In this document: positions 1-35,666 of the stretch, piece after piece
Position numbering within the stretch: position 1 is the first letter of the stretch
Layout: every line of letters begins with the position of its first letter
Assembly (NCBI GenBank): GCA_022510545.1
Contig: JAFLTG010000023.1
Location: 1-37,792, forward strand
Source: Lachnospiraceae bacterium
GTDB lineage: Bacteria; Bacillota; Clostridia; Lachnospirales; Lachnospiraceae
Direction: 5' to 3'
DNA: 37,792 bases
Translations under genes and position numbers: made by a program
The notes under the pieces: generated by a model
Database searches by the model: none
The model's input: the letters and a program-made list of their open reading frames with translations, nothing else
Told to the model about the DNA's origin: nothing

Positions 1-6303
<6,303 letters not shown>

Positions 6304-16069: not shown

Positions 16070-16141
16070 GGTATTGATACTCCTTATTATTGAAAACAAT
16101 AATTATGGTATCACATCTGTAGAAAAAGTAAAGTGGTTAAT

Positions 16142-16176
16142 TAAGTATTTACACGGGGTAAGCCGATATATATAAT
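16142..16176 (+). promoter_or_regulatory. Sigma-28 (SigD/FliA)-type promoter overlapping a sigma-A promoter
   Basis: A perfect sigma-28 -10 element GCCGATAT sits at 16162-16169 with a TAAG -35-like element at 16142-16145, 16 nt upstream (consensus TAAA-N15-GCCGATAT). The same stretch also holds TTTACA (16148-16153), 17 nt, TATAAT (16171-16176), a good sigma-A promoter. The downstream genes could therefore be driven by both the housekeeping and the motility sigma factor. Confidence 0.6.
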
Positions 16177-16261
16177 GAATTATACACTTTTTTAGAAAGT
16201 TAAGTGTGTTTGGGACAATGTAACGGATATATTTGTATTTAAGCGCATGAATATGACACGC

Positions 16262-16300
16262 ATGTCAGAAAGGAATCTGACATAAGTAATTACAAGGAGG
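16262..16300 (+). promoter_or_regulatory. Leader hairpin with GGA loop plus Shine-Dalgarno: CsrA-like target
   Basis: Perfect 8-bp stem ATGTCAGA / TCTGACAT (16262-16269 and 16276-16283) presenting the hexaloop AAGGAA. The real Shine-Dalgarno AAGGAGG follows at 16294-16300, so two GGA motifs lie about 24 nt apart, the arrangement of CsrA sites BS1 and BS2 in the Bacillus hag leader. Function is inferred. Confidence 0.45.
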
Positions 16301-16307
16301 TATTTTT

Positions 16308-17369
16308 ATGGTATTACGTTTATTGGGAAGAGACGAAAACAGTTTCGTCATCAGTCATAATGAAAAAGCACAGGAACGCAGCGAAGCAAGAAACGGCAAG
16401 GCAAATGACGCTAAAGCAAGCAGTAAGTCCATCAATATGAGTGGTCTGGGCTTTACTGATGACGCAGTCCTTTTTCGTAAGCAGCTTGCAAGAAAGCGTG
16501 CAATGAAGATTATAAGTGATGCATGGGCAGGGGATAAGAAAATAAATCAGAATCTGGATGATATAAGAAGCGACCGTGATAGAGCCAATGCGGAAATTTC
16601 TGAGTATACGGATTATATCATGGGATATAAGGATAAGAAAGCGCAGCTCAAAGAATATTACGGTATAGAAGATGAAAACTATACCAAGGAGGAAGCTGCA
16701 CTGCTTAAGAAAGAAGCCGAAGCAGCTGAAAATCCCGAAATAACTCTTACGCAGGAAGAACAGGAAAAATTGGAACAGCTTAAGAATTCTCCGCTTTACA
16801 AATATAAACAGGAGATATCCGGACTGGATGCTGCGATTTCCAATTATGAGCTCAAAATCGATAAAGCCAAAAATGAGGTAATAGCAGCCAATTCACAGAT
16901 TACAGGGATTCAATTAGAGCGGCTTAAATATTATGAAATGTTGAAGGCTCAGAAAAAAGCAGATAAGATTAATGAAGAAGCCAGTAAGGAAGCCATAGGT
17001 ATGCTCATCGGAGAGGCGCAGGACCATATCAAGGAAGAATTCGAAGAAAAGGTCGAGGAAGCAAAGAAGAGAGCGGAAGAAAAAGAAGAACAGGAAGAGA
17101 AGCTCGAAGAAAAAAGAGAAGAAAAAGAAGAGTTCAAAGAGCAGCTTGAAATTGAGCGTAAAGAAAGCAGAGAAGCCGAAAGGACCCGAATAGAGCAGGA
17201 GAAAAATGCAAGAGAGCAGTCGGATATCATTGAAGGCGCGGAAGCGAATTCCGATGATGCCACTTCTGCACTGCCTTCGGAGATCAAAGCGCAGATCAAG
17301 GAGATGCTTCAAAAGATGAAACTTCTTGAGGAAGATTTAAAGGGAGCGGAAGTAGATGACGTCGTTTGA
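16308..17369 (+). CDS. Glu/Lys-rich coiled-coil protein of unknown function
   Basis: No family recognised. The 353-residue soluble protein has a polar N terminus (1-50, rich in Ala, Ser, Lys, Asn), a conserved-looking segment FTDDAVLFRKQLARKRAMKI (50-69), then long charged helices: about 75-125, 150-170, 178-220 and an almost uninterrupted Glu/Lys/Arg coiled coil at about 235-315, ending in a short helix at the C terminus. There is no signal peptide, membrane segment or cysteine cluster. It has a near-perfect AAGGAGG Shine-Dalgarno, a sigma-28-like promoter and a CsrA-like leader hairpin, and its stop overlaps the start of the glycosyltransferase gene by 14 nt, so the two are translationally coupled. 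A structural or chaperone role connected with motility is a guess from this context. Confidence 0.8.
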   Translation: MVLRLLGRDENSFVISHNEKAQERSEARNGKANDAKASSKSINMSGLGFTDDAVLFRKQLARKRAMKIISDAWAGDKKINQNLDDIRSDRDRANAEISEYTDYIMGYKDKKAQLKEYYGIEDENYTKEEAALLKKEAEAAENPEITLTQEEQEKLEQLKNSPLYKYKQEISGLDAAISNYELKIDKAKNEVIAANSQITGIQLERLKYYEMLKAQKKADKINEEASKEAIGMLIGEAQDHIKEEFEEKVEEAKKRAEEKEEQEEKLEEKREEKEEFKEQLEIERKESREAERTRIEQEKNAREQSDIIEGAEANSDDATSALPSEIKAQIKEMLQKMKLLEEDLKGAEVDDVV

Positions 17370-18573
17370 TGAAAAGAGTTCATCGATGAAAAAGATAATG
17401 CTTTTTGAAGGTGATATTGAGACCCAGGGATATTTTTCGATACAGCTGGCGGAAGCGTTTGAAAAGCTGGGGCATAAGACTTTTATATTTGACCTTGCCA
17501 GCCCCTGGAGCAGTACTGAGAAATTTTTTAAGTTTTATGAAAAAGGAAATACGGTGCTGGTTAATTTCAATTTCCATGGGATGAGCGGAGAAGAATATTT
17601 CCTAGACGAAAATGACCGTATGATGTGGGACGCACTGCAGATACCGGCCTATAATATAGTGGTCGATCACCCTATGTATTATCATCATTTTTTGGAGAAG
17701 GTTCCTAAGGATTACCACCATATAAACATTGACAGAAATCATGAAAAATATATGCGGCGTTTTTTTCCGGAGATTAAGAACGGACCTTTTCTGCCGCTTG
17801 CAGGAACACAGCTATATCCTAATAAATCTTATGTGCCGGCACGGTATCGCAGATATGATGTGACTATGGTTGGGAATTATACCCCGCCTTCTCAGTTTGA
17901 GAAATATATTACAAGGATAGATGATGAATATACTGAATTTTATTACGGTATGATTGATGATTTGCTGGCACACCCGATGCGGACCGTAGAGGATGTTGCA
18001 CAGGAGCATATAAAAAGGGAAATACCTGAAGTGACTGAAGAAGAGCTCAAGATGCTTATGAGCAAGCTCACTTTTATAGATTTGTATGTCCGCTTTACTA
18101 CAAGGGGTGAGGCGGTAAAAGCATTGGCTGACGCCGGTATCAAAGTAAATGTTTTTGGCGGCGGTTGGGACAGGCTGGATTGTAAGAAACCGGAGAATCT
18201 TATTGTGGGCAATAGTCTTGATTCCGTAGGCTGTTTGAAGAAGTTGTGCCAGAGTAAGATTTCTTTGAATGTTATGCCATGGTTCAGAGATGGTGCACAT
18301 GACAGGATTTTTAATTCTATGTTAAACGGAGCTTTATGCCTGACCGACAGCAGCGTATATCTTGATGAAATTCTCACGGATAAAGTGAATAGCATGATAT
18401 ATTCAACCGACAATATTGGCGCATTGCCGGATATGGTTAACTGGCTGCTGGATAATCCCTCAGACTTGCAGAGAATCATAGATAACGGTTATGAACTGGC
18501 TAAATCCGCACATACATGGGAGCATCGTGCTGAGATGCTTCATAACCTGATTGAAAGAGATGGAACATCATGA
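17356..18573 (+). CDS. CgeB-like / GT4-type glycosyltransferase
   Basis: Cytoplasmic 405-residue protein with two Rossmann-like halves: an N-terminal half beginning MKKIMLFEGDIETQGYF after a 10-residue lead-in, and a C-terminal half containing GIKVNVFGGGWDRL and KISLNVMPWFRDGAHDRIFN, then GALCLTDSSVYLDE, the layout of CgeB/DUF3880-type family-1 glycosyltransferases that use nucleotide-sugars. Target unknown. The start at 17356 has AAGGGAG nine bases upstream and overlaps the coiled-coil gene; ATG at 17386 is an alternative. Its 3' end overlaps azlC by 4 nt. Such proteins are common beside flagellin genes, so with the upstream sigma-28-like promoter a role in glycosylating flagellin or another surface protein is plausible but not shown. 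Confidence 0.8.
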   Translation: MTSFDEKSSSMKKIMLFEGDIETQGYFSIQLAEAFEKLGHKTFIFDLASPWSSTEKFFKFYEKGNTVLVNFNFHGMSGEEYFLDENDRMMWDALQIPAYNIVVDHPMYYHHFLEKVPKDYHHINIDRNHEKYMRRFFPEIKNGPFLPLAGTQLYPNKSYVPARYRRYDVTMVGNYTPPSQFEKYITRIDDEYTEFYYGMIDDLLAHPMRTVEDVAQEHIKREIPEVTEEELKMLMSKLTFIDLYVRFTTRGEAVKALADAGIKVNVFGGGWDRLDCKKPENLIVGNSLDSVGCLKKLCQSKISLNVMPWFRDGAHDRIFNSMLNGALCLTDSSVYLDEILTDKVNSMIYSTDNIGALPDMVNWLLDNPSDLQRIIDNGYELAKSAHTWEHRAEMLHNLIERDGTS

Positions 18574-34045: not shown

Positions 34046-34741
34046 ATGAGAAGTTATGCAAGTATCGTAGAAAATGCTATTGAAGAAATACCATTTAATC
34101 AATTAATTATTGCATCTGAATTATACAAAAAAATTTCTTTGGGGATTACAGAGCAGACTTTTTATAAAATAATAGAGAGATTATCAAAAAACGGAAAACT
34201 GGTGCATTTAACGAAAGGTGTTTATTACCGACCAAAAATAACACGATTTGGTACAGTACCCATTTCGGAAAATGAGATTGCAAACCATTATTTGAAAAAT
34301 CATCAAGGAGTTTTAGTTGGCTATCGGATGTATAATCAGAAAGGAATTACAACACAGGTTGGTAAGAGGGTTGAGATTTTATCAGCTATATTGTCGGAAG
34401 AGCAGAAGCATATATGCAATGTATCCGTGCGAAGGATTACAGCTCCGTTGAATGAGGAGACAATTCCGATAATAGAAACAATGGAAATATTACAAGATTA
34501 TAAAAATATTGAAGATATAAATACAAAAGTACTGGCAGCGTATATGATGCATTTTTCTCAAAATTATTCAGATCCTGCTATGGAAATTGTACTTGCGAAT
34601 CGAAAGTATAAGAAATCAACGATTGCATTTATGGCAGCATTTCTGAACTATCATCAAGTGAAAAATACGTTAAGCGGATATTTGTCGCCTATGTCTGATT
34701 ACAAAATCCCAAACGTGGAGGAATTATATGAATTTGCATAA
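34046..34741 (+). CDS. abiEi: AbiEi-type antitoxin (DUF6088-like, winged helix)
   Basis: Antitoxin and probable autorepressor of a type IV toxin-antitoxin pair. 231 residues: N-terminal winged-helix region (about 1-65) with ITEQTFYKIIERLSKNGKL and LTKGVYYRPK, then the AbiEi-like C-terminal part. AAGGTGGTG precedes the ATG. The last 14 nt overlap the toxin gene, so they are translated together. The gene is more AT-rich than its neighbours, in keeping with acquisition. Assignment rests on the winged helix, length and partner gene. Confidence 0.82.
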   Translation: MRSYASIVENAIEEIPFNQLIIASELYKKISLGITEQTFYKIIERLSKNGKLVHLTKGVYYRPKITRFGTVPISENEIANHYLKNHQGVLVGYRMYNQKGITTQVGKRVEILSAILSEEQKHICNVSVRRITAPLNEETIPIIETMEILQDYKNIEDINTKVLAAYMMHFSQNYSDPAMEIVLANRKYKKSTIAFMAAFLNYHQVKNTLSGYLSPMSDYKIPNVEELYEFA

Positions 34742-35666
34742 AGATATTGAATCTTTTAATGATTTGGCTGCGGTTACGGCTGAATATATCGGTATCCCAA
34801 TGTTAGCTGTAAAAAGAGATTATTATATTGTAATGATGTTGCAAATGTTAGCAGAGAGTGTATATGCAGATAATTGTGTATTTAAGGGCGGAACTTCGTT
34901 GAGCAAGGGGTATCCGGGATCAATTTTAAGATTCTCAGAAGACATCGATCTTACATTTATTCCGGGTGACAATATGAGCAAAAAGCAATATGACAAGGCA
35001 TTAAAGAATATAGAAAAAATTATGACAGTAGATGCATTTATGGAAAAGATTCCAGAGGAGCGGAATGATCGGAATAAAAGTTCCTATGTCTGGTTTGAAG
35101 AGGGTGGTAAAGAGCGGATAAAATTGGAAATTGGCTCCAGCATCCGTCCTGATCCATATTCATATAAGGAAATAAAGACATATATTCAAGAGTATTTGGA
35201 AGTGCAAGGCATGTCAGATGTGATACAGGAATATGAATTTACATCGATATCCGTCAATATTCTATGTATTGAACGGACATTTATAGATAAGGTTATGTCG
35301 GTGAAGCGCCATGCGATTTGTGGCACATTAGATAGAAAAGTGCGCCATATTTATGATGTGACTATGCTCTTTGGACGAAGTGATATTCAGGCATTCTTGA
35401 ATGATAAAATTGTACTGAAAGAGTTGATTCAAAAAACAAAAGCTACAGACAATTTCTATTTAGAAAAGCGTACTATGTCTAAAGAATATAATCCTGTTGA
35501 GAGTTATGATTTTCCAGCATGGGAGAATTGCTTTGATAGTATTATTCGTACCAGATATGAGACACTGCATGAAGATTTGCTATATACAAATGAAAAACAG
35601 GATTTTGATAAAGCAATTTTTGTGTTTCGTAAAATCAGCGAAATGTTTTCTGAATTAGGAGAATAG
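34728..35666 (+). CDS. abiEii: AbiEii/AbiGii family nucleotidyltransferase toxin
   Basis: Toxin of the pair; AbiEii-like enzymes are DNA polymerase-beta-type nucleotidyltransferases, some of which modify tRNA acceptor ends and halt growth, aborting phage infection. 312 residues with FKGGTSLSKGY (52-61) and the metal-binding SEDIDLTF (70-77, Asp72 and Asp74), then ERTFIDKVMSVKRH, all conserved in the family. GGAGG lies 6 nt before the ATG inside the antitoxin gene. The active site looks intact. Whether it protects against phage here is not known. Confidence 0.92.
   Translation: MNLHKDIESFNDLAAVTAEYIGIPMLAVKRDYYIVMMLQMLAESVYADNCVFKGGTSLSKGYPGSILRFSEDIDLTFIPGDNMSKKQYDKALKNIEKIMTVDAFMEKIPEERNDRNKSSYVWFEEGGKERIKLEIGSSIRPDPYSYKEIKTYIQEYLEVQGMSDVIQEYEFTSISVNILCIERTFIDKVMSVKRHAICGTLDRKVRHIYDVTMLFGRSDIQAFLNDKIVLKELIQKTKATDNFYLEKRTMSKEYNPVESYDFPAWENCFDSIIRTRYETLHEDLLYTNEKQDFDKAIFVFRKISEMFSELGE

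Follow-up and report, generated by a model that had tools for sequence, protein, structure and literature searches.

The window, i.e. the whole stretch of DNA that was analysed (37,792 nucleotides, contig C95), belongs to a Lachnospiraceae draft genome of 2.85 Mb that is 87% complete. The leader discussed here sits between a transporter gene (PF03547; 15143-16099, minus strand) and a divergently oriented gene on the plus strand (16308..17369, ATG at 16308) for a predicted coiled-coil protein of 353 amino acids, called CC, from an uncharacterised family of flagellated Lachnospirales. The features of the leader are all located on the plus strand. A sigma-28-type promoter of the form TTAAG-N16-GCCGATAT occupies 16141..16169 (TTAAG at 16141-16145, spacer 16, GCCGATAT at 16162-16169) and is overlapped by a sigma-A-type promoter at 16148..16176 (TTTACA-N17-TATAAT, 11 of 12 letters matched). 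Further downstream, a hairpin with eight perfect pairs (ATGTCAGA/AAGGAA/TCTGACAT, 16262..16283, hexaloop 16270-16275) forms a putative upstream CsrA site, followed by ACAAGGAGG at 16292..16300, which includes the Shine-Dalgarno sequence AAGGAGG (16294-16300) and may be a second CsrA site. Behind CC, on the same strand, a frame for a CgeB-like glycosyltransferase (GT; PF13524, E 1.6e-15) is open from 17356 to 18573. The window also contains a short flagellin gene of 263 amino acids (PF00669 and PF00700; 35744-36535, minus strand). DUF6088 and AbiEii genes located next to each other (34046-35666, plus strand) resemble an AbiE-type toxin-antitoxin or abortive-infection pair, and a protein of 2065 aa encoded at 106-6303 (plus strand) has a GH53 domain as well as FIVAR and a match to Flg_new_2.

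The first-pass annotation had proposed a sigma-28 element with a spaced -35 in front of CC, and such an element is present. Its -35, TTAA, differs by one letter from TAAA, and it agrees with what defines a sigma-28 (SigD/FliA) promoter, namely a TAAA-like -35, a spacer of 15-17 and CCGATA(T/A). For Butyrivibrio fibrisolvens, the accessible text of PMC3720852 gives the sigma-28 consensus TAAA (N16-17) MCGATAa. This B. fibrisolvens consensus fits TTAA-N17-GCCGATAT of CC save for the one -35 letter, and the flagellin promoters of Roseburia, Eubacterium and B. fibrisolvens are among the closest known systems. That paper deals with flagellin genes, and neither "regulon" nor "hypothetical protein" occurs in its accessible text. 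The octamer GCCGATAT by itself is weak evidence, because it is found 166 times in the own genome, compared to 89 times for the reversed pattern; it is the conservation in front of CC that carries weight. With the full sigma-28 pattern, 27 loci of the own genome were retrieved (8+7 matches vs 3+6, and 7+5 vs 2+4, for the patterns and their reversed versions). Three of these appear to be genuine targets (flgM, a gene for a DUF6033 protein and one for an unknown protein of 360 aa), and many of the remaining ones may be chance matches. At the DUF6033 gene (L124, 283-984, plus strand), the sigma-28 match is accompanied by an ACGGAT motif that is flanked by short pairing stretches; the 360-aa gene (L101, 247-1326, minus strand) likewise lies behind a sigma-28 match and has the hairpin GGAAA-AGGGAA-TTTCC. 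Both are perhaps further members of the regulon of CC.

The 8-bp hairpin with an AAGGAA hexaloop and the AAGGAGG Shine-Dalgarno sequence, which had been described along with the promoter, were confirmed in the sequence. The distance of about 24 nt stated for them is that between the GGA of the loop and the GGA of the Shine-Dalgarno sequence; the hairpin also ends 24 nt before the ATG. It appears in the minimum-energy fold as well as in the centroid fold, and the overall stability of the leader is unremarkable (z -1.49). In the part of PMC7652899 that is accessible, sites of the CsrA family are described as ANGGAN hexaloop hairpins and as RUACARGGAUGU, and repression by CsrA through two sites, one of them over the Shine-Dalgarno sequence, is exemplified by B. 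subtilis hag with FliW as the antagonist. The window contains the ANGGAN hexaloop hairpin upstream of the Shine-Dalgarno sequence that a hag-type CsrA/FliW leader would have, and over the Shine-Dalgarno sequence UUACAAGGAGGU matches RUACARGGAUGU at 10 of 12 letters (by eye). A difference concerns the stems, which have 6-10 bp at CC and are thus longer than those of most CsrA ligands obtained by SELEX, for which the same text gives four or fewer pairs (PMC7652899). The regulators are encoded in the own genome as well: csrA was found with the PF02599 profile, and a 153-aa open reading frame directly before it is a fliW-like gene, identified by sequence reading. The order on this contig, which thus carries hook genes as well, is by eye flgM, flgN-like, two flgK-like genes, flgL, fliW and csrA as the last gene; the identity of flgM was verified with Pfam, and a sigma-28 match precedes it. 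In many genomes of the genus (G005, G021, G031 and others), CsrA was matched two to four times, once strongly (about 79-90 bits) and otherwise more weakly (mostly 34-60 bits).

To judge the leader, it was compared with those of relatives. A search of 61 genomes for CC yielded 32 with a match at E 0.001; strong matches (best E 6e-33 or lower) occurred in 30 of the 37 genomes of the genus, the own genome included, and 1 of the 24 genomes outside the genus had a match. The comparison comprised 32 leaders with an intact 5' side, including the window's own leader and a single one (L092) that lies outside the genus, three genomes contributing two loci each; these leaders are related to one another and hence not independent. 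A promoter was scored if at least four of the five letters of T[AT]AAG were followed after 14-16 bases by NCCGATA at no more than 250 nt, a rule set after the first leaders had been read, and a hairpin if an ANGGAN hexaloop was closed by at least six pairs and ended no more than 60 nt from the start. By these rules, the promoter was kept in 31 of 32 orthologous leaders, the hairpin in 19 and both together in 18, compared to 2, 2 and 0, respectively, of 251 other genes of the same stretches. Dinucleotide shuffling of the 32 leaders (6400 shuffles in total) produced the promoter 35 times and the hairpin 11 times; a chance origin of the CC leader was rejected on the basis of these shuffles and of the other genes. 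The Shine-Dalgarno sequence reads ACARGGAGG in 23 of 32 leaders but in only 3 of the 251 other genes, start codons having been chosen by Shine-Dalgarno strength in both sets. Lack of hairpin conservation in relatives, which had been named as an argument against the annotation, was not observed, given these 19 leaders and the covariation of the stems.

For the pair count, 20 of 26 hairpins from 83 leaders were used (the 19 selected by rule and L126; L127, L131, L136, L142, L178 and L180 were left out). In these, 95% of the cells are paired and seven of the eight pairs have changed on both sides, which was reached by 5 of 500 shuffles. The covariation score amounts to 0.707, compared to 0.258 after shuffling (reached by 0 of 500) and 0.05-0.16 for slid versions. 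Since the hairpins were collected by their pairing, a fair judgement has to rely on the control rates. All 20 loops read A[ACG]GGA[AGT] and are six nucleotides long while the letters of the stem vary, and the stem changes are compensatory, leaving the pairing intact. Spacing from the GGA of the loop to that of the Shine-Dalgarno sequence ranges from 21 to 54 nt across the 19 leaders. By the rule the hairpin is absent from 13 of the 32 leaders, 8 of which belong to proteins that have one type of C-terminus in common; one of the 13 (L083) was perhaps counted as hairpin-less only through a doubtful start call. In 25 loci from named genomes, a looser rule gave a promoter-like match in 14 and none in 11, and among the 30 leaders of the set covering the order, which again include the window and L092, 13 had the strict promoter and 3 a 6-bp hairpin. 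Comparative evidence for the control of CC is thus strong within the genus, where it is well supported, and less so further out.

In B. subtilis, the flagellin gene hag has a SigD promoter and the CsrA sites BS1 and BS2. The Hag-FliW-CsrA loop is described in PMC6529632, in whose accessible text the names BS1/BS2 and SigD do not occur. The hag and CC leaders have in common a sigma-28-class promoter, an upstream CsrA-type site, a site over the Shine-Dalgarno sequence and the presence of csrA and a fliW-like gene; they differ in that hag encodes flagellin, whereas CC, with its putative CsrA sites, represents an unnamed coiled-coil family. The proposal of the first-pass annotation that CC is arranged like Bacillus hag therefore stood as regards the promoter, the two CsrA-type sites, csrA and fliW in the genome, and conservation with compensatory stem changes, but the hairpin is missing in some relatives. 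The most informative counterpart was detected within the genus. Six flagellin genes of five genomes, whose products start with MVVQHN or MIIEHN, all have an ANGGAN hexaloop hairpin ending 24 nt before the start (6/6), with five pairs, i.e. below the minimum of six set for CC. In five of the six, the promoter -10 lies at 140-143 nt, compared to 146 in the window, where the hairpin likewise ends at 24. One of these flagellins (G010) was identified by a Pfam model, the other five by their protein start. Two flagellins of L202 starting with MLSVQHN showed neither promoter nor hairpin, and the sigma-28/ANGGAN layout was not seen by eye at the C106 flagellin of the own genome or at the short flagellin of the window. 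Because the L202 MLSVQHN genes and the own-genome flagellins are without it, the layout is limited to one flagellin class; it is common to CC and this class of the genus, and is seen at flagellins of relatives only.

The distribution of CC is in line with a link to flagella. Among 344 sampled genomes of the order, CC was found in 31 and flagellin in 218, and all 31 CC genomes are among the 218. The motility link that had been claimed was borne out insofar as CC occurs only together with flagellin in these genomes. Had the gene been equally common without flagella, the annotation would have counted this against itself; CC was found in 0 of 126 flagellin-less genomes (Fisher 5e-7, relatedness ignored). 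Conversely, 187 of the 218 flagellin genomes lack CC, and all seven genomes of the genus without a strong CC match carry flagellin, so CC is dispensable for flagella, absences from draft genomes being soft. Named genome records matching CC are mostly labelled Lachnospiraceae, and some Roseburia, Butyrivibrio or Acetatifactor.

The CC protein itself is predicted to be a coiled coil. It revealed no Pfam or NCBIfam family, no known flagellar domain and no credible relative in Pfam, NCBIfam or the PDB, where the best match, to a small GTPase, had E 0.012 and covered an alpha-helical stretch. In Pfam, one or two of 29 family members gave scattered matches, and a literature search returned no paper recognised as treating the family. 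Neighbouring genes were surveyed from four before to six after CC at 56 loci, after exclusion of two known duplicates and with some genomes represented twice. In 28 of these, a neighbour of CC encodes a protein of 222-304 aa with the C-terminal domain of the FliD cap protein (PF07195; 31.5 bits for a representative vs a Pfam cut-off of 25.4), a domain that CC itself does not have. This FliD_C-like protein is shorter than the FliD-like open reading frame of the flagellar locus, which by reading comprises 731-743 aa. It directly follows CC in ten relatives; in several, CC is followed by genes that by eye resemble a response regulator and a kinase, and then by the FliD_C-like gene and a gene termed cluster 2. 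In the own genome, the FliD_C-like gene is located on contig C169 beside a gene that resembles cluster 2 by eye. A strong FliD_C-like homologue (E 1e-50 or lower, a split chosen by us) was present in every one of the 30 genomes of the genus that have strong CC, compared to 3 of the 7 that do not (Fisher 5e-4); the weaker matches of the other four (about 1e-9 to 1e-11) are probably other FliD_C proteins. Of 28 leaders of the FliD_C-like genes, just one (L145) showed the hairpin, and five had a promoter-like match when a loose rule was applied, which in L137 was complete at 5/5. Eight further such leaders, three of them readable, yielded none with a promoter or hairpin.

Taken together, CC probably belongs to the late, filament-stage genes of the flagellar regulon in Lachnospirales; it is placed under a flagellin-type leader and likely works with the FliD_C-like protein, the GT standing apart. 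Confidence in this reading is good but not higher, because the flagellins of the own genome are without the layout and conservation outside the genus is thin. The type of control is known; the CC family is in neither Pfam nor NCBIfam. The scheme of sigma-28/FlgM followed by CsrA/FliW is established for flagellin elsewhere, and we infer it for CC from its parts, by analogy. According to this scheme, sigma-28 RNA polymerase would transcribe CC once FlgM has left the cell. A CsrA dimer would bridge the ANGGAN hexaloop and the Shine-Dalgarno sequence and hold back translation until the export of flagellin frees FliW, which would remove CsrA and allow CC to be translated. Such flagellin-like timing, the occurrence only with flagella and the FliD_C-domain neighbour are the reasons to regard CC as a filament-stage accessory: most likely, CC and the small FliD_C-domain protein form an accessory of the filament or cap. 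CC may be exported by the flagellar type III apparatus, a reading that is preferred here and for which the low Cys content and the N/Q-rich start give indirect hints. Over 82 CC homologues, the first 40 residues are N/Q-rich and Cys-free, and Cys makes up 0.32% of CC, 0.24% of the FliD_C-like protein and 0.03% of cluster 2, compared to 1.54% of other neighbours; coiled coils are poor in Cys anyway. A wider and tentative version, which is possible though we would not presume it, is that CC, the FliD_C-like protein and the small, almost Cys-free cluster 2 protein constitute an undescribed flagellar accessory that is gated by the hook checkpoint and exported to the filament tip or surface. The main rival, which is somewhat doubtful, is that under the same control CC instead stays in the cytoplasm as a chaperone or scaffold of late flagellar assembly in the manner of FliT, FliS and FlgN. 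The coiled-coil helices, the FliD_C-domain neighbour and the late-class leader would suit this role as well. Two arguments, both weak, speak against it: the first 40 residues look more like an export start, and FliT, FliS and FlgN are smaller than the approximately 350 aa of CC.

Another explanation would be that the promoter is real and the hairpin not a CsrA site but a stabiliser of the mRNA, or that transcription starts from the sigma-A promoter. This is rather improbable. Leaders by rule devoid of a hairpin, the long stems and the sigma-A-type match of the window are compatible with it, but the retention of an ANGGAN loop of exactly six nucleotides while the stem letters vary, the conserved ACARGGAGG and the matching layout before flagellin speak against it. 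Sigma-A transcription alone was rejected as a conserved feature, since a sigma-A-type promoter scoring at least 10 was present in only 4 of the 31 CC leaders scored.

The annotation had further suggested that CC and the GT, with overlapping frames, may be a motility-linked module. The frame open from 17356 indeed overlaps CC, but 14 readable GT orthologues start with MKKI or MKRI, corresponding to 17386 as the likely start, so that the overlap is uncertain. Beyond the window, the GT directly adjoins CC in 2 of 33 stretches of relatives and lies 3-8 kb off in three more; it was not found in the other 28 stretches. Its orthologue is present in 34 of 37 genomes of the genus and in 0 of 24 others, and an association with CC is not clear (29 of 30 genomes with CC, 5 of 7 without; Fisher 0.09). 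At 20 GT loci, 14 leaders were readable, two of them behind CC, and these contained no promoter match of at least 4/5 (L164 reached 3/5) and no hairpin. In the loci compared by eye, the gene is the first of a block that also encodes an HD protein, an Orn/Lys/Arg decarboxylase and other housekeeping-like products; for the window, Pfam identified the HD protein and the decarboxylase. The GT had no PDB match. That CC and the GT act as a pair modifying flagellin or a surface protein is highly improbable: they share strand and adjacency with no terminator-like site seen between them in the window, and several relatives have distant CgeB-like paralogues (30-37% identity) in their flagellar locus, on the contig that carries csrA, but the GT neither stays with CC, being present also where CC is missing, nor shares its control. 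The pair was rejected as a module, and a role of this GT in flagellin modification was not supported. Because of the adjacency, the common strand and the missing terminator-like site, both genes may be read from the sigma-28 promoter here and in G036, which for the window would be a local feature. The GT matches the domain of CgeB-like glycosyltransferases but is no stable partner of CC, next to which it seems to lie by chance; it would be part of a housekeeping block beside which CC sits in this lineage. In the flagellar loci of L201 and L202, flagellin is accompanied by several genes that resemble glycosyltransferases, some of them CgeB-like, and these loci are a better place to seek flagellin glycosylation.

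The analysis thus assigns to the flagellar regulon a protein family that is widespread among motile gut Lachnospirales but has no name, most probably under a flagellin-type control region, and its leaders provide a ready set for testing control by CsrA and FliW beyond flagellin. If CC is exported, these commensals have a flagellar component that is not mentioned in the literature found. Should the accessory composed of CC, the FliD_C-like protein and cluster 2 prove true, gut commensals could display this set to the host or to their neighbours, with CC being made at the stage of flagellin.
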